Shown: piece by piece, positions 13,739 to 44,082 of the stretch | How the letters are laid out: every line of letters starts with the position of its first letter | How positions within the stretch are numbered: position 1 is the first letter of the stretch | Source of the DNA: a virus | IMG/VR virus record: IMGVR_UViG_3300018005_000018 | Span: 1-56,022 of that record | Length of the DNA stretch: 56,022 nucleotides | Strand: one strand, 5' to 3' | The notes under the pieces: model-generated | Told to the model about the DNA's origin: nothing | What the model saw: the letters and a program-made list of their open reading frames with translations, nothing else | The model's database searches: none | Translations under genes and position numbers: made by a program

Positions 13739-15112
13739 TTAGCTTGCTTCAAGAAGGACAAACTGGTTGCCTCCACGGAAGTGAGCTCCTACATGACATC
13801 TCTGATAGGTGTTCTCTTTATCAAACTCGGTTACTTTAAACCGTCCTACACCTCCAACCTTCCATACTTCCATCCTTCTGGAATAGTCACCGAGAGCACG
13901 ATACCTTGTGCCTACGGAATCAACCATATTTCCAGAAACAGGATCTTTTTTCTTGTTGATAGGCATAAAGAGCCCTAACTGATTTGCGGTGTATCCTGGT
14001 GCTCCTTCAACCTCCGGGTTGTTAAACACTCCCATCCTCTTGAACAAGAATGTCCTTTCTGATAGTGTCAGATAGGTGAAGTTGACGGAAAGACTGAGGG
14101 CTTCGTTCCTATGAAACAGAACATCATTGACAGCTTCTTTCGCATACATGATGTTAGTGTTCTTAAAATAATCAAGCAACTTGTTCTCAATGTCCTGATG
14201 GAGTTTTAATCCAAGCAGTCCAAGGATATAGCTACCTGCGAAGTTCTGGTCAAGGGTGTTGTCCATCGTGTCAAACTCGTCAATGTCGAAGGCACCTGCG
14301 GTATATGATTGCTCATTACCTACCCTACGTACATAAGGTATTGCACCTTCTGTGAATTTGACTACCCTTCCGGTCACAGGGTCAGTTATCGAACCATCCC
14401 CACGTCTTCCCCACAGAAGGGCACCATCAATCTTCAATGACATACGATAATCAATGTCGATCTGCCCTTTGTAGTAAAATGCGGGAATCTTCTGTCCTTT
14501 GCTTGTGACATCGAACCAGTCCTGGTTGACCATCTCTGTCCCGGTATAGCCAATCGTTTCCTTTATTATCTGGGCATCATTGTCATATTCCCATGTTCCA
14601 GAGAGAGCAGCATCCGGCTGTCCACCACCTTCTGAGAAGGCTGCGGTACGAATGATGATTGTCTCCCCTGCTGTTACTGCGGGTATGTTGTCTGCCTGAT
14701 TGACCGGCTGAACAGATAGCACAGGTGCCGTCTTATCAGTCGTTTTGTCAATAGAGATTACCTGACCCATGACTTCGTTCGGGAACATCAGCACGTCCCA
14801 TCTGCGGACATAGAAGTTCCAGTTTGCGTCAAGGTCTTGCGGGGCAAGTGTTATTAACGCTACCGCCCCTGCTGCAGAAACAGCAACGGCATTATTAGCG
14901 TGTATAGTTGTGTGGATATGATTTTCCTCATAGTGTCCATAAGTGTCAAGTGCCACCGGTTCTTCAAATCCCATTGATCGAAGTAACTGGAAGAATGACG
15001 CTCCCTGATCTCCGTACCTGCTAAAAAGTACATTGAGTTTTTCAGGCTTGTATATGTCGAAGCCCGAAACTATGTCAGAGGCATATATCGCTGCAATAGC
15101 ATCTGGTCCCAT
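13739..15112 (-). CDS. Major capsid protein
   Basis: 457 aa, the best candidate for the HK97-fold shell protein by size, composition and position directly after the scaffold-type gene in a terminase-portal-scaffold-capsid order. Features: mixed alpha/beta sequence, a beta-tongue-like centre (GQKIPAFYYKGQIDIDYRMS), and a long helix (QNFAGSYILGLLGLKLHQDI). No protease is visible beside it. Call rests on gene order and general resemblance to Bacteroidota phage capsid proteins. Confidence 0.7.
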   Translation of the reverse strand: MGPDAIAAIYASDIVSGFDIYKPEKLNVLFSRYGDQGASFFQLLRSMGFEEPVALDTYGHYEENHIHTTIHANNAVAVSAAGAVALITLAPQDLDANWNFYVRRWDVLMFPNEVMGQVISIDKTTDKTAPVLSVQPVNQADNIPAVTAGETIIIRTAAFSEGGGQPDAALSGTWEYDNDAQIIKETIGYTGTEMVNQDWFDVTSKGQKIPAFYYKGQIDIDYRMSLKIDGALLWGRRGDGSITDPVTGRVVKFTEGAIPYVRRVGNEQSYTAGAFDIDEFDTMDNTLDQNFAGSYILGLLGLKLHQDIENKLLDYFKNTNIMYAKEAVNDVLFHRNEALSLSVNFTYLTLSERTFLFKRMGVFNNPEVEGAPGYTANQLGLFMPINKKKDPVSGNMVDSVGTRYRALGDYSRRMEVWKVGGVGRFKVTEFDKENTYQRCHVGAHFRGGNQFVLLEAS

Positions 15113-16376: not shown

Positions 16377-16406
16377 CAAATATATAAATAATTTATTGTT
16401 GTTCAA
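16377..16406 (-). promoter_or_regulatory. Bacteroidota-type promoter for scaffold and capsid
   Basis: Minus strand TTG (16406-16404), 19-base gap, TATATTTG (16384-16377); about 20 bases before the scaffold ATG. Both boxes match the -33/-7 consensus. It overlaps the end of the portal gene and would raise scaffold and capsid transcription over portal. Confidence 0.7.
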
Positions 16407-18687
16407 CAGGCATCTGCGATTTTGCCCCATGTTTGAGAATATCAACACCTCCCTCAAGCTGAAGGAGTTCTTTCTTTCGTTCATGTTCGCTTTGTTTCGC
16501 CTTTTCGTCAATCAAAACTTTCGCTTGATAAAGTCTTATTGCTTCATCTGTCTTAATCTTTTCTGTTGCTTGAGCGAGTTCTTCCTTAATCTTAACAGCA
16601 TTTTGTTCTCTCTGACCATCGAGTTGCATATTTTCTCTCTGGAGTTTAAGTTGTTTATCTTTGTTCTGTTTGCTCTTATAATTGAGATATGCTTCTGCAT
16701 ATTTCAGATTTCCCGATTCAAGAAGCCTGTCTATCATCAAAAAGTCAGCCATCTGGATCATTGTCGTACCATCCTTATCAGGTGTCAGGGCTCTCATGGC
16801 TGCCTGTTTGATGTCATTACTCCGTTCATCAGTCGGCTTGGCTTCATATTTGATGTAATAATCAGCATCCACGGTATCTGCTCCTGCACTTATTATCTGC
16901 ACTCCCATTGTTCCGAGTACTGGCAAATATCCTTCATAGGCTTCTTTGTTATGCTTTATGAGCAGTTGTATCCTCAGCGACATGTTCTTTGCCGTGTTCT
17001 CTTTGATGTTCAGATATGCGTTATAAAGAGGTCTGAGCGCATTGTTTGTTGCTGCCATCGCCATCTTATTATTCCCAACGGGTGTATTCGGGTCTGGTTG
17101 AGATGCGTCTGATGCCTGTGTTATGCCGGTTGCTTCACGGATAGCATTTAAGTTAAGTTCAAAAATCTGAATAAACTCACCAAGTTGCGCTCCGATCCCT
17201 CCTGCAAGTTCCTGAATAGGCTTAAATCCTCCCGGTACATTTGGAATGCCTTTATGGGTAGTTGCTTTATATAGCAAAGTACCTGTCTGGTTTCTTAGCT
17301 TAATAAGATCGAGTTCGCTAATCTTTTTACCACCAAGTTTCATGTTCTGTAGTGAAGTCATTTCAATAGACAACCCTGATGGTGCTGCCATCGCAATAGT
17401 GTTTTGCAAACGGAAAAATGCCAAACAGAACTGATGGACATACTGTTCAGAAAGACTCACAAGTGACCTGTAAGGCAGTTTATAGAGATGATAAGAAAGA
17501 CCCACTTCTTTTTTACCTGGACGGGGAACATCATATTGCAGACCAAAATCCCAAACAAAATCTGTTCCTATGAGCCATTTACATTTATAAACAACTTTTA
17601 TGTCAAATTTTTCCGTTTTTCTCTTTTCATCATTATAGAACTTTCCCCATTTTTCATCCCCAAGGACTATTGTGCCAAATTTTGTCTTGCGCTTTGTTTT
17701 GTACTTGCTGTCAATAGACATCCATTCCGCATCAAACACCTCAATAGAGAAATTATCGTAGTTTGAAGCCCTGGTGTTTTTATCATAGACAAAATCACTG
17801 AGCGATACGTTACCTCCTATGCCACTATATGAATTGGCTAATTCCCTCAAAATATCTTCATCAATATCGGGATTGAGTTTGCGTACATCGGAGATAAGCA
17901 TCTGTGTCACCTCTCCTGCCCATTCCATGTTACGGTGGTCAGGATAACGAGAATATTGTGCAATGAAATATTTTGGGTCAACATATCGTGCTTTTACTTT
18001 ATTTGTGTACTGATCGGTATAGTCTTTCGTTGCTATTTTATTGATCGCACAAGCATCTCGTATAAGTTGTTTCTTGATTTCCTGCCATGAGGATATATAA
18101 AACGAATAATCAAGTGCCTGTTCAATCTCTATCTCTTTTGACAACTTAAACCCTCCAGCACCTTCATACAGGTTTAGTTCTTCCATGGTGTCGGGAACAT
18201 ACTCATTCGAGTTATCAATGCCCATGGATTTTTCGATATATGACAATGCCTCTTTGAACTTCATCCGATATTGCATATCCAATTTTGCAGATTCCCTGTC
18301 ATCTGTGCTTGTCGGATCAACGGCTGTGGCTACCACCTGATGATCAGTCTGCATAAGCATTCCTTCCACTACACGAAGGAACTTTGGCATTATTGCAGGT
18401 ATGTCCCAGTTGATATTCATATACCCTGTCATTTCGCCACTATCATCACTCTCATCAAGGAGTATCTTTTGATATTGGCGCACGTTCTGTCTTCCATTTG
18501 CCAATAATCTCAGGGAGTTGATCTCATCAATCTCGCTGAAGGGTATAGCTGTACGTCCTTGTCTCCATGAAGCATACATAGCCTGTAAGTATTGTCTTCC
18601 CCAATCTTCATTTTTTTCTTTCGGGTCTATTTCATCCTTTGGGAAAGGATAAGCTCCGGTACCATATTTTTCTAAGGAAAGTCCCAT
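16393..18687 (-). CDS. Portal protein
   Basis: 764 aa from the ATG at 18687 (MGLSLEKYGTGAYPFPKDE); a TTG start at 18708 lies inside a promoter box and is less likely. Size, position after terminase, the helical crown, and a long C-terminal coiled coil (about residues 660-750, KQLKLQRENMQLDGQREQ) fit portal proteins of large Bacteroidota phages. The motif region around TSLQNMKLGGKKISELDLI and GGFKPIQELAGGIGAQLGEF is typical of these portals. It forms the dodecameric DNA gate in the capsid. Confidence 0.8.
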   Translation of the reverse strand: MGLSLEKYGTGAYPFPKDEIDPKEKNEDWGRQYLQAMYASWRQGRTAIPFSEIDEINSLRLLANGRQNVRQYQKILLDESDDSGEMTGYMNINWDIPAIMPKFLRVVEGMLMQTDHQVVATAVDPTSTDDRESAKLDMQYRMKFKEALSYIEKSMGIDNSNEYVPDTMEELNLYEGAGGFKLSKEIEIEQALDYSFYISSWQEIKKQLIRDACAINKIATKDYTDQYTNKVKARYVDPKYFIAQYSRYPDHRNMEWAGEVTQMLISDVRKLNPDIDEDILRELANSYSGIGGNVSLSDFVYDKNTRASNYDNFSIEVFDAEWMSIDSKYKTKRKTKFGTIVLGDEKWGKFYNDEKRKTEKFDIKVVYKCKWLIGTDFVWDFGLQYDVPRPGKKEVGLSYHLYKLPYRSLVSLSEQYVHQFCLAFFRLQNTIAMAAPSGLSIEMTSLQNMKLGGKKISELDLIKLRNQTGTLLYKATTHKGIPNVPGGFKPIQELAGGIGAQLGEFIQIFELNLNAIREATGITQASDASQPDPNTPVGNNKMAMAATNNALRPLYNAYLNIKENTAKNMSLRIQLLIKHNKEAYEGYLPVLGTMGVQIISAGADTVDADYYIKYEAKPTDERSNDIKQAAMRALTPDKDGTTMIQMADFLMIDRLLESGNLKYAEAYLNYKSKQNKDKQLKLQRENMQLDGQREQNAVKIKEELAQATEKIKTDEAIRLYQAKVLIDEKAKQSEHERKKELLQLEGGVDILKHGAKSQMPVEQQ

Positions 18688-18705
18688 TTTTGAGTTAATT
18701 TGCAC

Positions 18706-18713
18706 CAAAGTTA
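18706..18713 (-). promoter_or_regulatory. Possible -7 box before portal
   Basis: TAACTTTG on the minus strand, ending 18 bases before the portal ATG at 18687. No clear TTG lies 17-20 bases upstream, so strength is uncertain. It overlaps the terminase stop region and argues against the TTG start at 18708. Confidence 0.4.
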
Positions 18714-20957
18714 ATTAATTCTTACAGAACTATAAGTCTTTTTTCTTAGATAATTATCGAGAGTATATTCCTGCTCATCAATCTCCTCTATATCCTCATA
18801 AGCACTTATTGTGCCAAGTAGTGCGTATCCTGCTGCTGTAAATAGGTCATAATTGGTCATGTCTTCCGGGCCGTCAATATCTCTACATTCCTCCAATATC
18901 TCTATATGGTTTTCCTCATCAGCCTCATTCTCGATGAAGGATTGCCACTCTGAAAAAATTTGCTGTTTGATCTTTTCTCCGGTCTGTTCTCCCGGTGTTT
19001 TGCTAAGAGTAAATGTCTTTGGATCGTACTTATAAAGCAAGTAATGTGTATAACCTCTTTTTTCAAAATGATCCCATAACAATGATACGTTTATTTCGGG
19101 GAATATTTTTACTCCATAATAAACGCACATCATAAGCATATCTTCAGCATAAGTGTCTTTGTCGGGAGGGCGAAAATTATATGTGCAGGCAAACTTACGC
19201 TTCATCGAAAAATTACCATCTTTGATCTTACCTTTCTTCACAACTGCACCACCACCATTCGATATCCTGTTCCCTTTTGTTTTATTAAACTTAAATGGAT
19301 CGCCTCCGGCACTTCCCCATTGCGTATTCCCTGGCTCCCAAAGATTATCGTCTTCATTGCGAAATTTCCTGTTATCCTCACCAGCATCAAGTTGATGACT
19401 GACCAAAAATTTACCATGCGTATTAGCCACAAAGATCACTCGCCCATCCCTGACATTATCAAACCACCGGAAGTCTCCGCGTACTATTGGTAGTTTTTTT
19501 ATAGCCAGTTCATCAATATATATTTCGAGTTTTGTTAAGTTGAATCCCGAATCTTTTGATGCGGTGCGAAAACACTCTGCAAACCTTATAGGATAAAGTC
19601 TTATTCTTGTAGATAGTTTTTCTGGGTTATTAAGAAGACTTTTTCGTTCATTCATTATGTATTCGTATGCGCCAATCTTGCTACCAATGAACTGTGCCTG
19701 TGCTTTAGTTGGTGTGTTAATAATACTCATACCATAGGGATCAATAAAACCAGCCAGTCCATCATAGGCAGGTATAAATAAATTCACAAGCCCTGTTTCC
19801 GTCTGTCCATTAAGATTTCTGTGGTAATAATTACTCATTAAACATTGACTCTTAAATGCCTTGCCTCCTCCCTTCTCCATCTCGCCTACCGTGGATGTTT
19901 TTATTGTAAATCCAATAATCTTTCTACCATCCATAAGACATTCTCTCACGACTGCGTGCCTAGCCTCACAGTTCAACCCTTTTTTGAGACGACCTACCTC
20001 ATCATCATGGTGAAAATAAAGTTTTGTCCCTTCATAAGCCGTTTCTTCGGATGTGCCAAAATCTATCCCTGATTCGAGTCCCAACTCCGACATTGCCCTT
20101 GAACCTCCTGAAGAAAGTCTTTTTGCTGGAGGAGAAAAGGATAACTCAGTCTTTGGTGATGTTGAGCCTTCATAGTTTGGTTTAAAAAAGAACGGCAGTT
20201 TTTTCCATGGGCTAACAACATGGCGCAAAAAACAAATTTTTGCCTTATCATCAGTCATGGATTGTATGCCACCTCTGGCGTTTATTGTCCGACTTATGAT
20301 CTCATAGTTGATACATGATGCTTTATATGTTGCACCTTCTCGTCTGTGCTTAGCATAGTTGAATCCTATCAAAACCCTTTCTCCTGTTTCTATCCATTCG
20401 TAATCTCCGATTTTGCTTTTTATTGCATAACTGGTTTCTGGGTCACACTTGGGATATTTTTTTTCGGTATAAGCTATTCTGGCAAAGAGGAAAAACCTTC
20501 TGTCCCTGTCTCTGTATTCCGGCAGTCCCGTATCAATGTGCCACCATCCACAATAGAAATAATGCCACCCGTCAATGTATGTAGGTACTCCATTATTCCA
20601 AAACCAATAGCCATTAAGCCTCCTGTCCCATTGCAAACGTATAAACTCAATCTCCTCGGCATAGATGTCCTTGTGTTCTTCCAGTTCATCCCATATCTCA
20701 TCCAGAGTCTCAAATTTGACCTGTAGTTCTTTTAAGCGTTTCGGTAGTTTTGGAGGATGCCACATCTGCTCCCGTGCAGGTAGTCCCCAATTATCAATCT
20801 TATGTGGCTCCGGTGGTAATGGCAGTATTATCTCTATTGGAATAAGGTCTTTATCATCCGTGTTTACCCAAACACTCTTTGGCGATTCCTCATACTGTGA
20901 AAGTATCTGGGCATCGACCTCTTTGTAATAGCGTTTAAGTAATTCGTAAGGTTTCAT
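18711..20957 (-). CDS. terL: Terminase large subunit
   Basis: 748 aa. ATPase part: a deviant Walker A (KHRREGATYKAS, about 203-214), Walker B (KLYFHHDDEVG, about 312-322, acidic pair DE), and a coupling motif (IKTSTVGEMEKGGG, about 352-365). Nuclease part: VIFVANTHGKFLVSH, then WGSAGGDPF (Asp about 553) and YAEDMLMMCVYYGVKIFPE in the RNase H-like fold. It cuts and pumps DNA into the procapsid through the portal, encoded next. Unusually, it is preceded by a PP-loop enzyme and a sugar cluster rather than directly by a small terminase. Confidence 0.9.
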   Translation of the reverse strand: MKPYELLKRYYKEVDAQILSQYEESPKSVWVNTDDKDLIPIEIILPLPPEPHKIDNWGLPAREQMWHPPKLPKRLKELQVKFETLDEIWDELEEHKDIYAEEIEFIRLQWDRRLNGYWFWNNGVPTYIDGWHYFYCGWWHIDTGLPEYRDRDRRFFLFARIAYTEKKYPKCDPETSYAIKSKIGDYEWIETGERVLIGFNYAKHRREGATYKASCINYEIISRTINARGGIQSMTDDKAKICFLRHVVSPWKKLPFFFKPNYEGSTSPKTELSFSPPAKRLSSGGSRAMSELGLESGIDFGTSEETAYEGTKLYFHHDDEVGRLKKGLNCEARHAVVRECLMDGRKIIGFTIKTSTVGEMEKGGGKAFKSQCLMSNYYHRNLNGQTETGLVNLFIPAYDGLAGFIDPYGMSIINTPTKAQAQFIGSKIGAYEYIMNERKSLLNNPEKLSTRIRLYPIRFAECFRTASKDSGFNLTKLEIYIDELAIKKLPIVRGDFRWFDNVRDGRVIFVANTHGKFLVSHQLDAGEDNRKFRNEDDNLWEPGNTQWGSAGGDPFKFNKTKGNRISNGGGAVVKKGKIKDGNFSMKRKFACTYNFRPPDKDTYAEDMLMMCVYYGVKIFPEINVSLLWDHFEKRGYTHYLLYKYDPKTFTLSKTPGEQTGEKIKQQIFSEWQSFIENEADEENHIEILEECRDIDGPEDMTNYDLFTAAGYALLGTISAYEDIEEIDEQEYTLDNYLRKKTYSSVRIN

Positions 20958-20959
20958 AT

Positions 20960-21790
20960 TTAAACATCACAATAATCCGTGCAGTTTCCCCAAAGTGTTC
21001 CTTGATTTTCATTAAAATTCACCTCATCAAGAGGTAATAATGAATCATGTAAATATATCTTCGATGTGATTCCTTTCATACTTGAATCCCTAATTGCCTT
21101 ATCAACCTCAACGGCTTTCTCAAAATCAGAAGAAACAGTTGTTTTCAAACGAATCCAATTCTGATCTGACTGAAATGGACAAAAGACACATGAAGATTTC
21201 TCTGGGATTGGCAAATTATGTTCTTTATACCAATTTAAAACGTCATTTCGAGACATTATTTCTGAGTCAATCTTAATACATTTTCCATCAGGATAAACCT
21301 TATATCCACAAAACGGATAAACATTAATCTTCCATCCCTCTTGCGGTATGTTCATTCTGGTTGCTTCATCAACTGTTATGCCTTGATAAATTTCTATTTT
21401 AGGAAAGCGCGATTTTCCTTTTAAATCAAGTGTCTCGCGGATTTTTTTATTAACCTGCATAATCTTATATTCAGGTGTGCATTGCCTCCGTAACATACCT
21501 TTCTTGTTATCGTTTATTGTAAAGGCTGGAATGGGTGCAAATCTATTGCCTGATGAATTAGATTGATTCAATAAATCATTTTGAAGATTTTTATAACTGG
21601 CTTTATGTAAAGTAATACCATTATTTTCGGTCATCCATTCAATTAAATAATTATAATATTCAATGGTTTTTGTTTTCTCTCCACCTGTATCTGCAAATAT
21701 AGCATGATCGCATCTTTCTATTTCTCCCATTGAACTCATGTAATATAATGCAGAACTCTGCACCCCTACTCCTAAACTGATTATTTTCAT
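20960..21790 (-). CDS. PP-loop ATPase, PAPS-reductase-like
   Basis: 276 aa from MKIISLGVGVQSSALYYMSS, where the SxGxxSSAL stretch is the PP-loop (adenylating) site; the upstream in-frame start at 21805 is less likely. HAIFADTGGEKTKT matches the second strand of phosphoadenosine-phosphosulfate reductase-type enzymes. Cysteines occur in RRQC, YPFCGY, SSCVFCPF and WGNCTDYC, so metal or Fe-S binding is possible. Phage members of this family have no settled role; DndC-type DNA sulfur transfer or base modification are analogies only, since no DndB/D/E-like partners are visible. It starts just after the glycosyltransferase gene and ends 3 bases from terminase. Confidence 0.75.
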   Translation of the reverse strand: MKIISLGVGVQSSALYYMSSMGEIERCDHAIFADTGGEKTKTIEYYNYLIEWMTENNGITLHKASYKNLQNDLLNQSNSSGNRFAPIPAFTINDNKKGMLRRQCTPEYKIMQVNKKIRETLDLKGKSRFPKIEIYQGITVDEATRMNIPQEGWKINVYPFCGYKVYPDGKCIKIDSEIMSRNDVLNWYKEHNLPIPEKSSCVFCPFQSDQNWIRLKTTVSSDFEKAVEVDKAIRDSSMKGITSKIYLHDSLLPLDEVNFNENQGTLWGNCTDYCDV

Positions 21791-21791
21791 A

Positions 21792-23084
21792 TCAATTATG
21801 CACAAAGAGTGCCTTGTTTATCCCAACAACTCTTAATCCTCTCCTACTACATTCCGCAGCACATTCCTCGGCAAAGGCTCCATCTGCCTGTTCATGTTCG
21901 TGGTTGAATCCCACTGCCTTTGCCACATCCATCCTTGTGATGAATGAACCCATGTCAATGTAGCATACCTGTACTCTTGTCTGAAGTATATCATATCCCA
22001 TGTAGGAATGAATGGTATTACAATAGACCATACCTACATCTGGCTGACAGCTATTTATAAAAAACTCCACAAATGGTTGTATATACTCGTTATCGTCATT
22101 TGTAATCAATATAAAATCAGTTGGCTCTCCCTGTACCTCCTGTACCATCATCTTACGGTTTGGGAATCCCCATTTGCCATTTACTTGCGGAGTTGATCTG
22201 AAGTTTAGTCGTGCATCATTGAATGACTTTGCAAGAAAGGCTGTAAGTTCTATTGGTGCCGGACCATCGTGAACAATGTTCATAGTCCAGTTTGGGTTTG
22301 TCTGACAAAGAAAATCCCAGATAAGCCTTGCGAGTTGTTGTGATCTTTGATACACTGTTACAATAACATGAATCTTCATATTGCGGTTTCTTTCGTAGTT
22401 ACTTCGTGGATAGGTTACATCGAAATGCCCTTTTCCTTCGGTCAATAGCTTTCTAATGTTCAATCCCGAGTTATGAAACTCGAATGCCCTGACGTTTGTA
22501 TTAGAGCCAACCCAGAACTCCCTGTGATACCTCCAATCTGACTCCAGATAACCATGATTAAGTGTTTGCAGGTATCTTGTCTTTGCCCACCAGAAGTTGC
22601 CAGAGAAGTGAGGAAAATAGCCTATTGGCGTGTCTTGGTTCCAGAGGATGCCACAACAGTCATATCCGAGATCGAGTTTAGTCACACAATCTCTCCAGTT
22701 CTCAATATTAAAATATTCCATGTACCTGCGCCAGTCTTCGGTAGCCGGTGTACATTTAGTCACGCTTTTTGTATGGAAGTAGAACACATAATCATCGGGA
22801 TTAACCATGGAATAGTCTCTTACCCATTTCAGGGTGTTAGCCTCTTCGTTATTGTTTGGATGAACAACAATCTCAACCTTGTCTGAATCTTTCCATATAC
22901 CCTTTACCCATTCAATACCGTTCTCCGGTGATTTGCCCGGGTGATCGGTGATACCAATGTACAACTTACTGCAAGCATTAAATAATCCGAATTTGATAAG
23001 ACTGTCAAACTGACTAAGCATCATGGTCTGGTAATATGGTCCCGCCATAAATACATGATATGCTATGATAATTTTTTTTGTCAT
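21792..23084 (-). CDS. Two-domain glycosyltransferase
   Basis: 430 aa from the ATG at 23084 (ATGA overlap with the methyltransferase). N-terminal domain (about 1-225) with DDYVFYFHTKSVTK, WRRYMEYFNIENWRDCV and FPHFSGNFWWAKTRYL closely resembles the separate 209-aa protein encoded at 26551-27180. C-terminal domain (about 235-430) is a GT-A family 2-type transferase: KIHVIVTVYQRSQQL, NIVHDGPAP, and the DxD-like FILITNDDNEYI. It should transfer sugar from a nucleotide donor; target unknown (virion protein, DNA base, or host envelope). Confidence 0.8.
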   Translation of the reverse strand: MTKKIIIAYHVFMAGPYYQTMMLSQFDSLIKFGLFNACSKLYIGITDHPGKSPENGIEWVKGIWKDSDKVEIVVHPNNNEEANTLKWVRDYSMVNPDDYVFYFHTKSVTKCTPATEDWRRYMEYFNIENWRDCVTKLDLGYDCCGILWNQDTPIGYFPHFSGNFWWAKTRYLQTLNHGYLESDWRYHREFWVGSNTNVRAFEFHNSGLNIRKLLTEGKGHFDVTYPRSNYERNRNMKIHVIVTVYQRSQQLARLIWDFLCQTNPNWTMNIVHDGPAPIELTAFLAKSFNDARLNFRSTPQVNGKWGFPNRKMMVQEVQGEPTDFILITNDDNEYIQPFVEFFINSCQPDVGMVYCNTIHSYMGYDILQTRVQVCYIDMGSFITRMDVAKAVGFNHEHEQADGAFAEECAAECSRRGLRVVGINKALFVHN

Positions 23085-23818
23085 TTCTTTGCTACGAATA
23101 ATAGACAATCTCCGTGTGGTGTAGGCTCAACCATTTTTGTCATTATGCTTTTAAACCCGGCATCGAGAAAGCATCGCATCATCTCCTGTGGATACATCCA
23201 AAATGCTGTTTCGTTTAGACTTGCGCAATATTCTTCGAGGGTGTTTCTCAAATTTCCCCAGAACATCACCTTGCCTAAATATGTCTGTCCCATTGCCTCT
23301 ATATGACTTTCCTCCTTACATGGGTATTCAGCACTAGCTACCTGCGACCATACAAATACCATGTCTGTAATTTTTGCCATGTCGTAGATTAGTTGTGCGG
23401 GGTTTGTCTGATGATACAAAACTCCAAGTGCAGTCACCACATCAAATTTATCTCCCTTGTAGTTTGCTACATAGTTACAGAAGTCTCCAAATACAAACTT
23501 AGCTTTCATTAGTTGAAATGCCTCTTTGACTATCAGACATCGCATAAAACAATCGGAAAGTCCCTCTATACTTATGACCTCCTTTGCACCACGATCTACC
23601 ATCATTTTAGTATGTGCTCCCTCTAATGGCCCTAATTCAAGTATGTATTTCCCTTTTACATCGCCAACTGTCTCTATAAGCCATGTCAGATATGGACTCG
23701 TCTGCCACATCGCTGTGCCTCCGACCAACTTACCATTTATCTCAAACTGAGTAGTCCATCCTTTCATAATGGCAAACATAGATTCAGGAGAACAGTCTGT
23801 GCCAATTATTGTATTCAT
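23081..23818 (-). CDS. Class I SAM-dependent methyltransferase
   Basis: 245 aa. Motif I YILELGPLEGAHTKMMVDRG, the acidic end of strand 2 (VISIEGLSD), a motif near FVFGDFCNYV, and FDVVTALGVLYHQTNP (motif IV/V region) show a Rossmann methyltransferase of the small-molecule or sugar type rather than a DNA methylase (no NPPY or PC motif). Overlaps both neighbours by 4 bases, so it is co-translated with the glycosyltransferase. Confidence 0.8.
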   Translation of the reverse strand: MNTIIGTDCSPESMFAIMKGWTTQFEINGKLVGGTAMWQTSPYLTWLIETVGDVKGKYILELGPLEGAHTKMMVDRGAKEVISIEGLSDCFMRCLIVKEAFQLMKAKFVFGDFCNYVANYKGDKFDVVTALGVLYHQTNPAQLIYDMAKITDMVFVWSQVASAEYPCKEESHIEAMGQTYLGKVMFWGNLRNTLEEYCASLNETAFWMYPQEMMRCFLDAGFKSIMTKMVEPTPHGDCLLFVAKK

Positions 23819-24330
23819 AGTATTCTACTTATAACATTGAGGTTTGCAAACTCCCCAAATAATTCTTTTGCTGCGTTATTATAAGCAATTGCAGCAAGTT
23901 CTTCAGTTGCAAATGAACCCAATCCTTTGCGTTTTTTATCTATATTTATATAAGCAGTTATTGTCTTATATTTCTTTTGCTTATCATTCTTGCCTCTTAC
24001 AAAACTGACGCAAACTCCCTTAAATCTTGACTTACCCCAAGAAGTTTTATTTTGTTGATTTTGAGAATTTGTGCATAATCTTATATTATATTTTTGATTA
24101 TTCAACCCATTATGATCTTCATGATCAACCTGTACTCCTTGTGTAGCATTAAGTATTTCCCTGTGCATTTGAATATTTGGTCTCTGTTTGCCATTTAAAC
24201 GCCCATTATATCTTGTTGCATAATAAGTATTTCTATGTTTTCTGGCGAACCATTTCCATTGCATGAGGAAATCATAATTATCATCATCTACTAATGCGAT
24301 CTTACCTTGTGTTAAATGAATTTCTTTCAT
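23815..24330 (-). CDS. HNH/AP2 homing endonuclease
   Basis: 171 aa from MKEIHLTQGKIALVDDDNYD; an upstream in-frame start at 24447 would translate a structured leader and is rejected. HNH core: IQMHREILNATQGVQVDHED, then NNQKYNIRLCTNSQNQQNK; C-terminal AP2-like DNA-binding part: SRFKGVCVSF, LGSFATEELAAIAYNNAAKE, FGEFANLN. It sits between two sugar-pathway genes and has its own promoter and leader; its stop is coupled to the next methyltransferase, so insertion kept the operon running. Confidence 0.85.
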   Translation of the reverse strand: MKEIHLTQGKIALVDDDNYDFLMQWKWFARKHRNTYYATRYNGRLNGKQRPNIQMHREILNATQGVQVDHEDHNGLNNQKYNIRLCTNSQNQQNKTSWGKSRFKGVCVSFVRGKNDKQKKYKTITAYINIDKKRKGLGSFATEELAAIAYNNAAKELFGEFANLNVISRIL

Positions 24331-24356
24331 TGTACCAATATTTAAAAGAATGTACC

Positions 24357-24422
24357 AAAAAATGTAGTGAGAAAGAGTTGGTACTTCTCCTTTCATCGGG
24401 CAATTACCCCCGACTATCTCAC
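24357..24422 (-). ncRNA. Structured leader or small RNA (three-way junction plus U tract)
   Basis: On the minus strand, closing stem GTGAG/CTCAC (24422-24418 with 24371-24367), hairpin TCGGG/CCCGA (24413-24396, 8-base loop), hairpin AAAGGAG/CTCTTT (24393-24372, 9-base loop), then six T at 24362-24357. The second loop contains GTACCAA (24384-24378), which can pair with TTGGTAC at 24358-24352 and again at 24338-24332, the latter directly before the endonuclease ATG. It begins about where a transcript from the TATCTTTG box would start. Fits either a short terminated RNA or a leader that hides the start codon. No known RNA family recognised. Confidence 0.5.
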
Positions 24423-24424
24423 CA

Positions 24425-24432
24425 CAAAGATA
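24425..24432 (-). promoter_or_regulatory. -7 box TATCTTTG before the HNH gene leader
   Basis: Perfect TAnnTTTG on the minus strand, just after the stop of the C-methyltransferase gene. No good TTG box upstream. Predicted start lies at the 5' base of the structured RNA. Confidence 0.5.
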
Positions 24433-24443
24433 TAAATTATTTT

Positions 24444-25655
24444 TCATTTACCTATAACGGATATATTCGGAAACATCACAATAAACTTACCAGAATACTG
24501 CCCTTTTAAAGAATCAATAATGTAGTCTTTGAAATTATGTGCGAGAATAAGTATATAATCGGGCTGAAAGGCTTTTAATGATTCCCGACTGATAACTTCA
24601 ATACCTGTTCCTGGCACGAACTTGCCCTGTTTGAACGGAGTGTCATCAATGATGAAGGGGATCATATCATCATTTATCCCACAGCTATTAAGAAACACAC
24701 ATCCTTTCGCTGCAGCACCAAAACAAACAATCGTCTTATTTATTGCCAAAAGATCATAAATGAATTTACGAAATGTCTCTATTTTCTCGTGTGTTCTCTT
24801 TCCCCATTTGACACAATATTCCTCGGTAATAGTTTTTTCCAGATTAAGGAATGACAATATTGTGCTATCAGGATATCTGTATGATGATTCTTTTACACTA
24901 AGCACACGTAATGTCCCTGCGTGCATATCGTGATATGATACATTAACAACCCTTAATCCTTCCTGTGCCAATAGATCAACAATATTTTTCAAGCAATAAT
25001 AATACACATGTTCATGATAAATCTGGTCATAGTTATCATTTGCAAGCGTTGTGAGGATATATGGAAATTCCAGACACCATACACCCTCATTTGATAAATT
25101 CCTCTCTACACCTCTCACAAATGAACGAATATCGACAGTATGCTGAAACACGTTTGTTGATGTTATTAGTTTTGCTTTATATGGTAATCTTGTTTGCGAA
25201 TCAAAATAAATATTCAGATATTCGATGCCATTCTCTTTGTTAATATCAATAAAACTTTTGCTACAATCCACGTTCACATAATGCAGATTACAGTTCTCTT
25301 TGCGGAACTCCATAAGGAGACTACCGTCATTGCCTCCTATGTCCACCACCAAATCTTTATCTTTGAAGTTCACATGACGGGATAAGTAGTCATACATTTT
25401 TGCACAATGATCAAGATAGGGTTTGTTAACTCCCGACTTATAGAGATAGTTTAGAAACATATCATCTTTATTGACAACATCAGTCAAACATATTAACCGG
25501 CTCTCATGGAAGAATTGTATTGCCAATGGGAATCTCTGACAAGCCAATGATTCTTTTTTTGTATCACAGAAATTATTCACCAATGGTACAGTCCCAAGAT
25601 TAAGAAATTCTACTCGTTTTATACTACCGGATATGGGACATGAATCAATCTTCAT
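24444..25655 (-). CDS. Sugar C-methyltransferase (NovU/TylCIII type)
   Basis: 403 aa with the three-part layout of this family: a short N-terminal region (FLNLGTVPLVNNFC), a SAM-binding core (LVVDIGGNDGSLLMEFR), the hallmark QIYHEHVYYYCLKNIVDLL, and a C-terminal Rossmann-like domain (IVCFGAAAKGCVFLN, PDYILILAHNFKDYI). Family members methylate a ring carbon of nucleotide-bound deoxysugars. The N-terminal zinc-ribbon cysteines seem partly missing. Overlaps the RmlD-like gene by 4 bases; together they suggest making of an unusual branched deoxysugar. Confidence 0.8.
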   Translation of the reverse strand: MKIDSCPISGSIKRVEFLNLGTVPLVNNFCDTKKESLACQRFPLAIQFFHESRLICLTDVVNKDDMFLNYLYKSGVNKPYLDHCAKMYDYLSRHVNFKDKDLVVDIGGNDGSLLMEFRKENCNLHYVNVDCSKSFIDINKENGIEYLNIYFDSQTRLPYKAKLITSTNVFQHTVDIRSFVRGVERNLSNEGVWCLEFPYILTTLANDNYDQIYHEHVYYYCLKNIVDLLAQEGLRVVNVSYHDMHAGTLRVLSVKESSYRYPDSTILSFLNLEKTITEEYCVKWGKRTHEKIETFRKFIYDLLAINKTIVCFGAAAKGCVFLNSCGINDDMIPFIIDDTPFKQGKFVPGTGIEVISRESLKAFQPDYILILAHNFKDYIIDSLKGQYSGKFIVMFPNISVIGK

Positions 25656-26554
25656 TTCAAATAATCTTTATAATCAGTTTCAATATAATCCCTAAGTGCG
25701 TCTTTCCATGGTCGCATAATATTAAGTCCACGCAAATCGAGTTTTTTATTAACAAGATTTTCAAATACCGGACGGATAGATGTGTATTGCTCTGCAAAAT
25801 ATTCCGAGTCCACAATGTTTATCTTGACACTTTTTTCCAGATGTAATATCTTCAATATTTCCCATGTTATGTCGAGTCTTGATGTCACACCCTTGCAAAC
25901 CATGTTGTAAAGACCATACATACCCGTTTCAATAAGGAGACTCACATTCATGGCAAAATCTTTTGTGTATGTCATAGTGCCTCCCCTGTCATTCACAATA
26001 GTCAGTTCTTTTGCTCCGTTTTTTAGTTGTGACATGATCTTCTGTACAAACTTTTTATCTTTTGTCGGGCCACCCCCAACCATCCATCCGGCCCGACAAA
26101 CATAATATTTTCTAGCATATTCAATGACAAACCTCTCTCCTGCCCATTTTGACCTTGCATAGACATCAAGAGGATTAGGTATGTCCCAATCATCACAAAG
26201 TTCTTTTGTCCCATCAAAAATGCCTGCTGTACTGATATACAGGATTGGTATATTGAGTGCATTGGCAATACGAACAGCATCTTCCACAGCGAGTGTGTTT
26301 ACTAGATATGCCTCATCAGGATTGGCTTTACAGAACTCCAGATCGGTATATGCTCCGAGATGGAAAAGATAATCTGGTTCAAAATTAAAAACATCATTTC
26401 TATAAGCCTGCAGTCGGCGAAAATCCAAAAATCTTAACCATGGTTCATTAACATTCTTATCAGTGCATCGCAGATCATAATCGTTATTAAACCAATGATA
26501 GAATGCATCTCCAAGCATACCGCCACATCCACTAATGTAAATTTTTTTCTTCAT
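25652..26554 (-). CDS. RmlD-like NAD(P)-dependent sugar reductase/epimerase
   Basis: 300 aa short-chain dehydrogenase. Nucleotide-binding ISGCGGMLGDAFYHW (GxxGxxG), FEPDYLFHLGAYTDLEFCKA, ILYISTAGIFDG and the catalytic YARSK (Tyr/Lys) match dTDP-4-dehydrorhamnose reductase and relatives. Makes or modifies a nucleotide sugar for the neighbouring transferases. ATGA overlaps on both sides show it belongs to the cluster. Confidence 0.85.
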   Translation of the reverse strand: MKKKIYISGCGGMLGDAFYHWFNNDYDLRCTDKNVNEPWLRFLDFRRLQAYRNDVFNFEPDYLFHLGAYTDLEFCKANPDEAYLVNTLAVEDAVRIANALNIPILYISTAGIFDGTKELCDDWDIPNPLDVYARSKWAGERFVIEYARKYYVCRAGWMVGGGPTKDKKFVQKIMSQLKNGAKELTIVNDRGGTMTYTKDFAMNVSLLIETGMYGLYNMVCKGVTSRLDITWEILKILHLEKSVKINIVDSEYFAEQYTSIRPVFENLVNKKLDLRGLNIMRPWKDALRDYIETDYKDYLK

Positions 26555-27180
26555 ACTTTCTTATATTTCATTATAAAAACATCCTGCCCAGGTTCGACAA
26601 ATTCTTCAGCATAAAAATTTCCTCTTGCTTTACAGATATACTGTTCTGCCTGAAATCTATCATGTAGTTCAAGCGTATCAATCTTCGGCAGTTTGTTAAT
26701 AAACTGTCTATTAAACCACCAAAAGTTACCGGAAAAATGATCCGGACTATACATACGGTTCACAGATGACACATCATAGCCACATGTACATACCCTGTCA
26801 CAATGTTCTACCCATCTGTTTAAAATTGCCTCATTGAGCCATTCACGCCAATTACTTATATTTGTTTCAAATGGTCGAGTAATTCCTTTTGTGTGAAAAT
26901 AAAAGCCAACATATTCCGAAGTGTCCTGTTCGATAAGTCTGAGTGTTAAGAACTCATATTCACCCGGATTACCCGATATAATACGAATCTTTAGTTTTGG
27001 GTAGAGATTAGAAAATAATCTTTTAAATTGTGCTATTTCTTCCGGCAGTCCTATGAGCCCGATGTTTATTTCCTCACAAGCATCATATAGTCCTGATGTT
27101 AGTAATATGCGCATCTGGTTGGCACATATTGAATGCCAGATAGTGTGTAGCCAGATGTGCCAGAATCCTTTAATATTCAT
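26551..27180 (-). CDS. Glycosyltransferase-related protein (stand-alone copy of the N-terminal domain at 21792-23084)
   Basis: 209 aa. Shares with the larger transferase the ordered motifs YVGFYFHTKGITRP, ISNWREWLNEAI and PDHFSGNFWWFNRQFINKLP. The FHTKG and HFSGNFWW signatures occur in uncharacterised glycosyltransferase families of capsule and phage loci. It lacks the GT-A half, so it is either a full small transferase or a partner of the larger one. Starts with an ATGA overlap to the gene before. Confidence 0.65.
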   Translation of the reverse strand: MNIKGFWHIWLHTIWHSICANQMRILLTSGLYDACEEINIGLIGLPEEIAQFKRLFSNLYPKLKIRIISGNPGEYEFLTLRLIEQDTSEYVGFYFHTKGITRPFETNISNWREWLNEAILNRWVEHCDRVCTCGYDVSSVNRMYSPDHFSGNFWWFNRQFINKLPKIDTLELHDRFQAEQYICKARGNFYAEEFVEPGQDVFIMKYKKV

Positions 27181-27482
27181 TTTACTAATTTAAATATATT
27201 ACCATGATAACCAATTTCTTTGCCATCAACATATACGAACCACCCTCCGGCAGCAATCGTTCCGGGTTCTACTTTGGTTATGATATGTTCTCCCCATCCT
27301 AAATATTCATCTGCAAGATATTTGATTGCCTCTCTGTTTTTGTCTTCACTTAATGCACAATTTGGATATTCTTTATTATATAAAAGTCTATTTTCTTCAG
27401 AATATTCCATCAGCCGAACTTTATCATTAATATTAAATATAGGTAATACTTCTTTTTTATGAAAAAATTGTAAAATATTCAT
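27177..27482 (-). CDS. Hypothetical 101-aa protein
   Basis: Small charged protein with a beta-rich C-terminus (GGWFVYVDGKEIGYHGNIFK). No family recognised. It overlaps both neighbours by 4 bases and so is a true member of the operon, linking the terminase-side genes to the sugar cluster. Confidence 0.55.
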   Translation of the reverse strand: MNILQFFHKKEVLPIFNINDKVRLMEYSEENRLLYNKEYPNCALSEDKNREAIKYLADEYLGWGEHIITKVEPGTIAAGGWFVYVDGKEIGYHGNIFKLVK

Positions 27483-28120
27483 CTTGTTTTTTTTATTGAT
27501 ATTGGTGATTTACCTTCTTGCATTGCCTTTGCTATGTCCTCGGGTCGTAATGCTAACCTCTCGTTTTCCATATACCTCAAAAGTTCATCTCTCAGATAGG
27601 GGTTGTTATCTTCATTGAGTATTTCCAGAAGCGTTTCTTCTAGTTCTGTCTGTGCGTTTCTTGCATCAGGAATTTTTCTTGTCTCCCCCCCAATTATCTG
27701 AAGCATCAAAGTATAATAACTCTCATCCATTGCCACAAGATATGCGTATTTATAGTTACGGTGCATTCTCACATAAGTACAAATCTTTTTATTTACCTTT
27801 TCATTTTTACCCCTTAGAAAATCCTCAATTGGCGGTGCAAAGTTTCCTCCCTCTGCCGTCTCAAAACCACAATCATGAGCTACCTCTATTTTCCTTTTCA
27901 GAACATCATTGTATTTTTTCCTATATGGAGATCCTTTGTCGTACATACAGAGGACATAAAGCATAACCTTATTATCGTCAATGTCTTCCCCTGCAGTTGC
28001 TTTAAACTCCCTTATCTTACCCAAATCTTTGTAAAATGACAATACCGATGTACCTTCCGGTATCTTATCAACATTGTACATCATTGACTGAAACTCCTTA
28101 CCGTGAAATTGGCTTTTCAT
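27479..28120 (-). CDS. Hypothetical protein; small-terminase candidate
   Basis: 213 aa, mostly helical and charged (DVLKRKIEVAHDCGFETAEG, NAQTELEETLLEILNEDNNP, LRPEDIAKAMQEGKSPISIK). No clear helix-turn-helix is visible. Size and place a few genes before terminase make it a candidate for the small packaging subunit, but this is only positional inference. Coupled by overlaps on both sides. Confidence 0.45.
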   Translation of the reverse strand: MKSQFHGKEFQSMMYNVDKIPEGTSVLSFYKDLGKIREFKATAGEDIDDNKVMLYVLCMYDKGSPYRKKYNDVLKRKIEVAHDCGFETAEGGNFAPPIEDFLRGKNEKVNKKICTYVRMHRNYKYAYLVAMDESYYTLMLQIIGGETRKIPDARNAQTELEETLLEILNEDNNPYLRDELLRYMENERLALRPEDIAKAMQEGKSPISIKKTR

Positions 28121-31120: not shown

Positions 31121-31987
31121 TCATATCTTATTTTTTACACAAAATTGATCAACTCTGTCAAATAGTTCCCTGTCTTCATCACGAAGTCTTAACCACACCC
31201 TGGCCATATAGCCTTTGTCTTTTTTAAGTGTTCCCCATAGATGGGTGTATTTTCGTTTCTCATTATTACCAACTTCCATAGCATCAGGATTGATGACCTT
31301 AACCTGATCGCGCCATCCATGCTTCTTGATGAGACAGGCAAGGAAATACTGTTCATGGAAGAGATTCTGGTGCATGAGCATATCTTTTTCTTTCTCAAAG
31401 AATACTTCCTGATTAGCTGGTGCGAAGATATATTCCGCACTTGTCTTTCGCCATTCTTCGAAGATGCTCAAATCATTGCCACCACATATTCCACAGTTAT
31501 AGGCAAAGTCATCCACAGGGTTGTCGCATATGTCCTGTGGCTTCACCGGAGCCCTGCCCCAACACTTTTTAAGCATGTTATAATACTGATAACCATCGGC
31601 ATCGAAAGGCTCGTGTGACTGAAAGCATAGTTTGGCATTAAGAATACGTGGTGCCAGGGCATCCCAGAGAAACACGTCATTGTCGATATGAACAAACGGC
31701 TTGGTCTGTTCACAGTAAGCAAGTAGTTTGCCGTATGCCCAGAAATGACGATCAACGCTTTTCATCTCATTGAGCTTATCGGAATAGCTTGTGATGGGAA
31801 GTTTTAGTTGAGTGATAACATCGACACCCCAATTGGAAGAAATAAACTGCACCTCCTTAAAATGACGGGAGGCGCAGAGTACTGAGAGTGCTGTGGTAAA
31901 GAGAAAATCGCTATACCTGGTGAATCCACATTTATTGCCGAAGGATTCATCGGGGTTAAAATAGCTGAATACTGCTTTCCTGATCAT
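31121..31987 (-). CDS. Glycosyltransferase-like protein (DUF6734-type)
   Basis: 288 aa. TKPFVHIDNDVFLWDAL contains the DxD motif of GT-A enzymes; CGFTRYSDFLFTTALSVLCA and FAYNCGICGGNDLSIFEEW are seen in uncharacterised transferases that act on short sugar chains. It stands between a decoration-type protein (32000-32233) and an FN3 protein (30723-31049), so glycosylation of these virion proteins is a reasonable guess. Unlike the 20.9-27.2 kb cluster, it carries no sugar-making enzymes. Confidence 0.65.
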   Translation of the reverse strand: MIRKAVFSYFNPDESFGNKCGFTRYSDFLFTTALSVLCASRHFKEVQFISSNWGVDVITQLKLPITSYSDKLNEMKSVDRHFWAYGKLLAYCEQTKPFVHIDNDVFLWDALAPRILNAKLCFQSHEPFDADGYQYYNMLKKCWGRAPVKPQDICDNPVDDFAYNCGICGGNDLSIFEEWRKTSAEYIFAPANQEVFFEKEKDMLMHQNLFHEQYFLACLIKKHGWRDQVKVINPDAMEVGNNEKRKYTHLWGTLKKDKGYMARVWLRLRDEDRELFDRVDQFCVKNKI

Positions 31988-31999
31988 AGTTACGGAGTG

Positions 32000-32233
32000 T
32001 TACAGCCAGTAAACTCCGATTGCACCTACATAACTTGTCCCATAGGGGGCAGAGCCTCCACAGAGTACTGTTTTGGCGGTAGCGAATCTCCACTTCCACT
32101 CATTGAGGTCAATGACTTTTGTTACACAGTTTGCTATACTGTGCCATTGTGCGCCTTCTTTTGGTCCACTGGTCGCATTGATGACCGAGACTCGGGCTTT
32201 AAGGACGATACGTGCTCTTACGTTTGTTGCCAT
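32000..32233 (-). CDS. 77-aa small virion-type protein
   Basis: MATNVRARIVLKARVSVINA then a beta-rich middle and a Gly-rich hydrophobic end (SAPYGTSYVGAIGVYW). It lies between a FN3 structural gene and the glycosyltransferase. Beta pattern and place suggest a decoration protein. An opposite-strand frame covers the same DNA, but the minus frame fits the operon. Confidence 0.5.
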   Translation of the reverse strand: MATNVRARIVLKARVSVINATSGPKEGAQWHSIANCVTKVIDLNEWKWRFATAKTVLCGGSAPYGTSYVGAIGVYWL

Positions 32234-42614: not shown

Positions 42615-43253
42615 TTATACTTTATTTAAAGGATGGTTTGTCTTATTATCAATAACAAAATTATTGTATGCTTCTGCTGCTTGATGCGATGTAGAATACC
42701 AACCTAATTTATATTCAATATTATTCCATTGGATTCTTGCCAGCCATGGCTTTTTAAGATTTTTCTTTTTACGAAAAATTACACCTCTATATCCAGATGT
42801 GTTGCTCGATCTGAGAAGACTATTGTTTTGACAACTAATATTAAATGTTACCCATCGACAATTATCGGGTTCGTAATTGCCATCATTATTCTCTCTGTCT
42901 AAAAGAAGTCCTGTTTCATAACCGTTCAATAAAGACCATTCATAAAACATTAAAACAGATTTCCTCCATCCCGTACAGACGGAAATGCCTCTGCCTCCAT
43001 AATTTTTATATTCTACTACACTTGGGTTATAGCACCTTTGTATCATATTCCTCCATGCTCCATAAATAGGATGTCTTGCAAGTCCATGAATAATTCTCTT
43101 TTCTGATCTCAGTTCTAATTGTTTACAACCACATGATCTTGTATGACCTGAATTGACATGTGAAACGCTTGCCTTAAAAGCTTTACCGCTTAGTTTTCTA
43201 ACAAGCTTTCTGCTCGTCAATTTGCTTTTGCAGTTCGGCGCAAAAATTAACAT
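42615..43253 (-). CDS. HNH/AP2 homing endonuclease, N-terminus replaced
   Basis: About 212 aa from the ATG at 43253 (frame open to a TTG at 43310). Intact HNH part: HPIYGAWRNMIQRCYNPSVV, LLDRENNDGNYEPDNCRWVT; C-terminal AP2-like part: TSGYRGVIFRKKKN, LGWYSTSHQAAEAYNNFVID. The usual N-terminal zinc-ribbon is cut: only its last bit SGHTRSCGCK remains, and the preceding 25-40 codons are an out-of-frame copy of the end of the repeat-protein gene. Suggests that the cassette at 43.2-45.6 kb inserted into or replaced the 5' part. Confidence 0.75.
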   Translation of the reverse strand: MLIFAPNCKSKLTSRKLVRKLSGKAFKASVSHVNSGHTRSCGCKQLELRSEKRIIHGLARHPIYGAWRNMIQRCYNPSVVEYKNYGGRGISVCTGWRKSVLMFYEWSLLNGYETGLLLDRENNDGNYEPDNCRWVTFNISCQNNSLLRSSNTSGYRGVIFRKKKNLKKPWLARIQWNNIEYKLGWYSTSHQAAEAYNNFVIDNKTNHPLNKV

Positions 43254-44076
43254 ATCCGCGGTATTCATTAACCTGCTCATCAGTATAATTTCCGCGTCTT
43301 GCAATTTCAAGGCCGCTCTTAAGCCATTCGCTTATTGTGTATTTGTGGCAACCTATGTTAATATCACCAGTTCCATACCAAATAACTGTATGTTTTGTGC
43401 CGGTGATGCAAATAGTTTTTTGTATTACAACCCCATCGCCAATCGAAGCCCTTGAGCCAATAAAAGCCCAATCGCCAATCGAAGCCCCATCGCTAATCGA
43501 AGCCCCATCGCCAATCGAAGCCCTTGAGCCAATCAAAGCCCCATCGCCAATCGAAGCCCCATCGCCAATCGAAGCCCTTGAGCCAATCAAAGCCCCATAG
43601 CCAATCGAAGCCCCATCGCCAATCGAAGCCCTTGAGCCAATCGAAGCCCCATAGCCAATCGAAGCCCCATCGCCAATCGAAGCCCCTTCGCCAATCAAAG
43701 CCCCATCGCCAATCGAAGCCCCATAGCCAATCGAAGCCCTTGAGCCAATCGAAGCCCCATAGCCAATCAAAGCCCCATCGCCAATCGAAGCCCCATCGCC
43801 AATCGAAGCCCCTGAGCCAATCGAAGCCCTTGAGCCAATCGAAGCCCCATCGCCAATCGAAGCCCCATCGCCAATCGAAGCCCTTGAGCCAATCAAAGCC
43901 CCATCGCCAATCGAAGCCCTTGAGCCAATCGAAGCCCAATCGCCAATCGAAGCCCCATCGCCAATCGAAGCCCAATCTTTAATAATAATTTTTCGCTCTG
44001 CGAGCGCTTCTTTTGCTGTTTCAAAATCAAACGATTGCCAGCCTTTGCCGTCAACCCATAAGTTTATAGTTTTCAT
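43198..44076 (-). CDS. Hexapeptide-repeat (left-handed beta-helix) protein
   Basis: 292 aa from MKTINLWVDGKGWQSFDFET. Thirty six-residue units of the type ASIGDG (residues about 34-213) give the [LIV]-G-x-x-A-x pattern of a left-handed parallel beta-helix of about 10 turns. A conserved C-terminal domain follows (ICITGTKHTVIWYGTGDINI, YTISEWLKSGLEIARRGNYT). This repeat-plus-tail layout occurs in several phages, with no function known; no acyltransferase His is evident. The frame continues upstream into an HNH remnant. Base composition is clearly more GC-rich than the operon on either side. Confidence 0.75.
   Translation of the reverse strand: MKTINLWVDGKGWQSFDFETAKEALAERKIIIKDWASIGDGASIGDWASIGSRASIGDGALIGSRASIGDGASIGDGASIGSRASIGSGASIGDGASIGDGALIGYGASIGSRASIGYGASIGDGALIGEGASIGDGASIGYGASIGSRASIGDGASIGYGALIGSRASIGDGASIGDGALIGSRASIGDGASISDGASIGDWAFIGSRASIGDGVVIQKTICITGTKHTVIWYGTGDINIGCHKYTISEWLKSGLEIARRGNYTDEQVNEYRGYVNFCAELQKQIDEQKAC
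43436..43975 (-). repeat. 30-unit 18-base tandem repeat
   Basis: Head-to-tail copies of an 18-base unit (GCCAATCGAAGCCCC plus ATC, TTGA or ATA variants on the plus strand) with no spacers. Codes the hexapeptide array; differences sit mostly at the two variable residues (DG, SR, YG, DW). Likely expands or shrinks by slippage or recombination. Confidence 0.95.
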
Positions 44077-44082
44077 CCTTTT

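Follow-up and report, generated by a model that had tools for sequence, protein, structure and literature searches.

The IMG/VR record IMGVR_UViG_3300018005_000018 is a linear virus sequence of 56,022 nucleotides (56 kb), and this entire stretch is hereafter called the window. Between the gene for a candidate small terminase subunit (TerS) and the gene for the large terminase subunit (TerL) it carries a cassette of genes for the synthesis and transfer of sugars. In related phages the same slot is either empty or filled with such genes, and the contents of the slot are exchanged as blocks and turn over faster than the core genes. This analysis establishes which genes and enzyme families are present, the slot that they occupy and their exchange as blocks. 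The cassette is probably a switchable locus for the cytoplasmic glycosylation of a virion protein, expressed together with the head genes.

A variable slot between the terminase genes

Relatives of TerL were located by a scan in 59 viral loci. Others came from a profile scan, among them five in metagenome-assembled genomes (MAGs), mostly labelled Bacteroidota; the hosts of the phage group are probably Bacteroidota, and the binning of the MAGs hints at Prolixibacteraceae or other members of this phylum. Fifteen loci, the window included, reach both the TerS candidate and TerL (two-flank loci), and further partial loci show one side. In the two-flank loci the slot holds 4–19 genes. The gene arrangement of the window is beyond chance, because the same slot carries sugar genes in the 14 other two-flank loci. 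The preliminary description, made from the letters of the window, had suggested a search for the same order in other phages, and related phages indeed keep such genes clustered in this slot, not scattered. Thirteen relatives from the clade, and most of the distant ones (37–47% TerL identity), have the TerS candidate and TerL adjacent and the slot empty. On the TerL tree, the bootstrap of which is not settled, the distribution of the cassette needs four changes, compared with 9.2 when the labels are shuffled; the cassette is clustered on the tree yet has been gained or lost several times. Its carriers come from metagenomes only, and no annotated sugar genes were seen near TerL in the cultured relatives Flavobacterium elemo and Maribacter Panino or in the metagenomic record MW202828.

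The transferases of the window and 20 cassette representatives were scanned against Pfam. The transferases of the cargo belong to the GT2, GT92, GT10, GT11 and TOD1-type families, with a weak GT25 match, and are accompanied by a CapD-like dehydratase, a DegT aminotransferase, a hexapeptide acyltransferase, an FkbM methyltransferase, a WecB-like epimerase and a B12-type radical SAM protein. One cassette (L065:5036-17387, genome G003) encodes an SDR/KR reductase, KAS III, MaoC, an acyl carrier protein (ACP), a methyltransferase, a GNAT protein, DegT, FdtA and a HAD/FkbH-like protein, which is apparently an acyl-aminosugar pathway in a phage, as judged from the enzyme families. Among 143 open reading frames (ORFs) of the slots, three have one hydrophobic segment and none is multi-spanning, and no flippase (Wzx), polymerase (Wzy), lipid-carrier enzyme, initiating or membrane transferase, ligase or oligosaccharyltransferase was seen in these 143 ORFs. 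Because multi-spanning membrane proteins are absent from this set, the glycan is probably built on a soluble acceptor. The base composition of the cassettes is not distinct (0.366 in the window cassette and 0.383 in its contig) and thus gives no signal of recent foreign origin.

Two further observations concern the slot and its surroundings. The gene for the B12-binding radical SAM protein in the G011 cassette (L081:8957-10165, minus strand) has an 86% identical counterpart in the MAG contig L199. Just upstream, the gap between g240 and TerS is a second variable slot, which holds differing DNA methyltransferase-like genes (L081:11938-13221, L050:2-667, L010:1409-2593).

Exchange of cassettes as blocks

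The turnover of the contents is best seen in pairs of close relatives. The genomes G006 and G019 are 95% identical in TerL and 96% in TerS and have two of ten cassette genes in common, and G011 and G009 (87% identity in TerL) have none. G006 and G004, with 74% identity in TerL, share all ten of ten, five of them at 72–96%. The nucleotide similarity of G019 to G006 stops at the TerS stop codon, returns briefly inside the first transferase gene and resumes inside the last one. Similarly, the window matches L001, its nearest relative, at 86% identity over the 8.7 kb that follow the TerL start codon, and nothing before this codon aligns at the nucleotide level. The opposite pattern is displayed by G011 and the MAG contig L199, in which the cassette is conserved together with its flanks (81% over 11.8 kb).

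By analogy, this pattern is that of O-antigen and capsule switching in bacteria. The chances are about even that the cassettes define glycotypes, that is, a switchable coat of several sugars that covers a conserved virion protein, its genes occupying a fixed slot between the terminase genes and passing in blocks between lineages under diversifying selection.

Genes of the locus

The locus lies entirely on the minus strand (Table 1) and reads, from 5' to 3', TerS candidate, 101-aa ORF, 209-aa transferase, RmlD-like reductase, C-methyltransferase, HNH endonuclease, S-adenosylmethionine (SAM) methyltransferase, 430-aa transferase, PP-loop enzyme and TerL. The sugar and modification genes listed in the preliminary description, with the HNH gene in their middle, are all present between the terminase genes. 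That almost all of them are joined by ATGA overlaps holds for seven junctions with four-base overlaps and does not hold for the transferase/PP-loop and PP-loop/TerL junctions, which are gaps of +1 and +2, respectively. The overlap between the C-methyltransferase and HNH genes depends on the start codon, existing only with the long HNH ORF; the ATG at 24330, favoured by HNH homology and by a typical start (MKEIHLTQG), would leave a gap. By the operon layout, the sugar enzymes would be made together with the late head and packaging proteins. Also encoded in the window are a YqaJ nuclease, RusA, a RecT-like protein, a primase-helicase-like protein and virion proteins, one of which is a structural protein at 13739-15112.

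Table 1. Positions of the terminase locus genes and associated genes in the window (aa, amino acids).
Feature	Position	Strand	Remarks
77-aa ORF upstream of DUF6734, candidate acceptor	32000..32233	-	cluster C19
DUF6734 protein, candidate companion glycosyltransferase	31121..31987	-	PF20508 E=2e-41, HIDND motif
TerS candidate, 213 aa, constant left flank	27479..28120	-	cluster C3, 25 contigs, always beside TerL or cassette
101-aa ORF	27177..27482	-	no match in Pfam, PHROGs, PADLOC; no relative among contig set
HTKG-type glycosyltransferase, 209 aa, usually first cassette gene	26551..27180	-	relatives 45-69% identical
RmlD-like NDP-4-keto-sugar reductase, 300 aa	25652..26554	-	PF04321 E=4e-45
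NDP-sugar C-methyltransferase, 403 aa	24444..25655	-	PF08484 E=7.5e-31, with PF08421 and PF13489
HNH endonuclease	23815..24330 (ORF extends to 24447)	-	phrog_99 E=2.7e-27 from residue 76 of long ORF
SAM methyltransferase, 245 aa	23081..23818	-	PF08003 E=1e-6
Two-domain glycosyltransferase (HTKS + GT2), 430 aa	21792..23084	-	PF00535 E=9e-6 in C-terminal half
PP-loop, PAPS-reductase/SspD-like enzyme, 276 aa	20960..21790	-	phrog_424 E=1.6e-27
Large terminase TerL, constant right flank	18711..20957	-	tblastn to annotated terminase large subunits, best 34%
Portal protein	16393..18708	-	phrog_6547 E=4e-68

The reductase matches dTDP-4-dehydrorhamnose reductase (PDB 5u9c, E=3e-33) and scores below the NCBIfam equivalog cut-off TIGR01214 (163.7 and 224.05 bits, respectively); it is by sequence RmlD-like, and its exact substrate is not fixed thereby. 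In the C-methyltransferase the Zn-binding, SAM and C-terminal domains are all represented (PF08421 score 30.7 vs. 31.3 bits). It aligns over nearly its full length with the D-mycarose 3-C-methyltransferase TylC3 (PDB 4rv9, E=9e-47) and with TcaB9 (E=4e-34), its active-site IYHEH motif is in register with 4rv9, and copies 73–77% identical to it occur in L022, L040 and L050. The SAM methyltransferase is a probable sugar O-methyltransferase by homology: its best PDB match is EvdMO1 (E=2e-5), and its CmoB match is far under the cut-off. Pfam and PDB matches thus agree with the earlier statement that these families make and transfer branched deoxysugars, to which methylation can be added.

Relatives of the 209-aa transferase directly or nearly directly follow TerS in most cassettes. 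Its predicted fold (pLDDT 80) weakly resembles GT-A and nucleotidyltransferase folds (E about 1e-4, TM 0.3–0.5), and a PDB search with its profile gave nothing credible. This enzyme and the 430-aa transferase are related via the HTKG/HTKS domain, as first described for the pair, and the second proved to be two enzymes in one: its halves are separate neighbouring genes in L040 and L050, and its sequence reads as a natural fusion of an HTKS and a GT2 domain.

For the TerS candidate, sequence, profile and fold searches gave no match in Pfam, PHROGs, PDB or BFVD. Its constant position and its conservation, which extends to relatives with just 37–47% TerL identity where it still adjoins TerL, are what commends the small-terminase label, and the label is therefore kept as a candidate one. 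No relative of the HNH gene was found at the matching place in the contig set, and it is probably a mobile homing gene. As a modification enzyme the HNH protein was rejected.

The PP-loop gene

The protein encoded next to TerL is distantly similar to the PADLOC SspD profile (E=1.4e-10), and its phrog_424 family is found in 33 diverse phage records; a PDB sequence search with it gave no match. The sole other copy in the clade (78% identical) is in G011, between g105 and g240. Pfam scans of about 40 window proteins turned up no SspA-C or DndD/E partner, and the PADLOC scan covered four window proteins. Membership in the sugar pathway was rejected, as the gene lies apart in G011 and is absent from the shared content of the other cassettes. 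Since its single clade relative sits elsewhere, the gene is treated as an unrelated passenger, and we judge it by homology to be SspD-like and separate from the cassette. It would be a lone phosphorothioation-type (SspD/PAPS-reductase-like) enzyme in a phage.

Sugar clusters elsewhere in the head gene block

Clusters with related HTKG genes occupy other points of the head block as well, namely between g240 and TerS in L156 and L234, between TerL and portal in L148, and between portal and head morphogenesis genes in L152; PHROG matches confirm the neighbour genes in L148, L152 and L156. In L020 and L205 the sugar genes are instead found near DUF6734, upstream of g105. The constant feature of the sugar clusters is the head block, not the terminase. 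The idea that the product is loaded late, together with packaging, therefore stands in its first half, late co-expression with head and packaging genes by operon layout, and loses the special link to packaging. Near-universality of HTKG genes near heads was also considered and fails in large phages. Different backbones, L125 and L127, contain 68–69% relatives of the first transferase and other sugar genes, away from a recognised TerL.

The DUF6734 gene is present in nine of nine long cassette-bearing contigs and in none of the eight long contigs of the other class, and the HIDND motif makes its product a likely transferase. The small proteins of cluster C19 (77–97 aa), with a conserved WR..TA...LC.G motif, follow a similar distribution (8/9 and 0/8, respectively); the 77-aa ORF of the window is, speculatively, one candidate acceptor. 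G022, the slot of which is empty, also carries DUF6734 and the 77–97-aa protein, and the two may form the constant core of the system. DUF6734 and the small ORF, paired at 31121-32233 in the window, are separated in L205 by a GT92-like gene and a 198-aa ORF. Elsewhere in the window (43198-44319, minus strand), a GC-richer stretch encodes a protein made almost entirely of hexapeptide repeats (GASIGDGASIGSRASIG...; PF00132, E=5e-34), and distantly similar sequences lie close to HTKG genes in L143, L184 and L204.

Possible function of the cassette

According to the explanation we favour, a host nucleoside diphosphate (NDP)-4-keto-6-deoxy-sugar would be converted by the C-methyltransferase, the RmlD-like reductase and the SAM methyltransferase into a C-methylated, 4-reduced and probably O-methylated deoxysugar. 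A short glycan would next be assembled in the cytoplasm by soluble transferases: the 209-aa HTKG enzyme, perhaps joined by the DUF6734 protein, would act on a constant acceptor, and the two-domain enzyme would lengthen the chain. Since the genes lie in the head and packaging block, the acceptor would most likely be a virion protein produced at the same time, to which the HTKG clusters at other head-block points and the Corndog precedent (see below) also point. Recombination in the flanking TerS and TerL genes would swap the cassette as a block and give rise to near-identical phages with different surface glycans. We infer activity, sugar structure, acceptor and benefit in this scheme, and several points weigh against it. 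Position in the head block fits late expression and does not prove a virion target, and soluble transferases could instead modify the core of lipopolysaccharide (LPS) in the cytoplasm. In addition, HTKG relatives lie 10–50 kb from TerL in several large phages, the distribution of DUF6734 and the 77-aa ORF is confounded with phylogeny, and most contigs of the comparison set are incomplete.

The most serious competitor, though an improbable one, is that the cassette modifies a glycan on the surface of the infected host (LPS core, O-chain or capsule), which would block superinfection or the readsorption of progeny. The gene families are those of LPS and capsule synthesis, cytoplasmic LPS-core transferases work without a flippase, and in pelagimyophages, variable islands of glycosyltransferase genes within the structural region have been read in this way (PMC7029224). 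Yet none of the 143 slot ORFs encodes a flippase, a polymerase, a membrane transferase or an enzyme acting on lipid carriers, genes placed in the head block would come late for the control of superinfection, and no integrase was found among the window proteins scanned, so that a temperate lifestyle is not indicated. It is less probable still that the genes make a small secreted or injected glycoconjugate, or that they act on RNA or on a phage protein outside the virion. The 77-aa ORF beside DUF6734 could be a small modified peptide, but no export or protease gene was recognised, and in different phages the clusters are found in the head block again.

Glycosylation of a hydroxylated DNA base before or during packaging is suggested by the adjoining terminase and by the existence of DNA glycosylation in phages, and we give it little credence. 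The thymidylate-synthase-family hydroxymethylase PF00303 was not found in 16 records, several of them incomplete, while the control was positive in 9 of 14 genomes; no DNA-glucosyltransferase family appeared among the Pfam matches of the scanned transferases and representatives, and acyl-aminosugar sets with ACP and KAS III look like flagellin glycosylation. A search for Tet/JBP oxygenases gave no PF12851 match, nor did the control genomes. The earlier suggestion of a new DNA base change is thus not supported, and the PP-loop gene raised in its favour is judged to lie outside the cassette. Least probable of all is that the slot merely attracts insertions of selfish or neutral cargo that serves no coherent glycan function. 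HNH and GIY-YIG-like ORFs do occur in or near the slot, and the g240-TerS gap gathers unrelated genes such as DNA methyltransferases; against this, the cargo is almost wholly sugar-related, with coherent pathway sets and frequent four-base overlaps, and gene order is conserved between samples (G011 and L199, 77–96% identical).

The contents turn over far faster than the genes on either side, which implies that their product is under strong selection. The question raised is what perceives the coat of a phage in the environment, be it sugars of the host surface, depolymerases, grazers or immune systems, and near twins that differ in their cassettes, such as G006 and G019, would be natural experiments on this. 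In marine phages, metaviromic islands were reported to contain terminase genes more often than expected (PMC3909814), and, as speculation, the cassette slot may bear on this puzzle.

Comparison with known systems

Glycosylation of phage virions is known from a few actinobacteriophages, and Freeman reportedly described it in mycobacteriophages in 2023 (cited in PMC12619734). What looks new here is that the terminase slot is fixed and its cassette exchanged in blocks, virion glycosylation itself being already known. In the mycobacteriophage Corndog, an O-methyltransferase and transferases are encoded between the portal and the capsid protease, and capsid modification was proposed by the authors (PMC4351075). 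Corndog-type (Cluster O) phages and the phages described here have in common genes for soluble methyltransferases and glycosyltransferases within the head gene block; in mycobacteriophages capsid or tail proteins are the proposed or demonstrated targets, and in the window the genes are flanked by the TerS candidate and TerL, with the portal and virion protein genes next. Differences are the probable Bacteroidota hosts, the NDP-sugar synthesis genes, the fixed TerS-TerL slot and the block-exchanged content, and the acceptor is here a predicted one.

The flagellin viosamine island of P. syringae comprises an aminotransferase, a methyltransferase, KAS III, an acyltransferase, a ketoacyl reductase and ACP (PMC3927599), an enzyme set nearly identical to that of L065. 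Flagellin islands likewise are variable multi-gene sets for unusual (acyl)amino- and deoxysugars with soluble transferases, whereas the cassettes are phage-borne and flanked by terminase genes, with no flagellin, and that of the window carries a C-methyl deoxysugar set instead. The window C-methyltransferase shares full-length homology and the YHEH motif with the sugar 3-C-methyltransferases TylC3 and TcaB9, although it is a phage gene with a function assigned by sequence. Pelagimyophage hypervariable islands are also variable, glycosyltransferase-bearing and inside the structural region, but they include tail fibres, lie between VrlC and gp14 and are read as modifying the host O-chain (PMC7029224), whereas the slot described here lies between TerS and TerL and is without tail fibres. 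Bacterial O-antigen and capsule loci differ in Wzx, Wzy, the initiating transferase and the ligase, none of which was seen in the cassettes, and agree with them in a variable centre, constant flanks and block exchange among close relatives.

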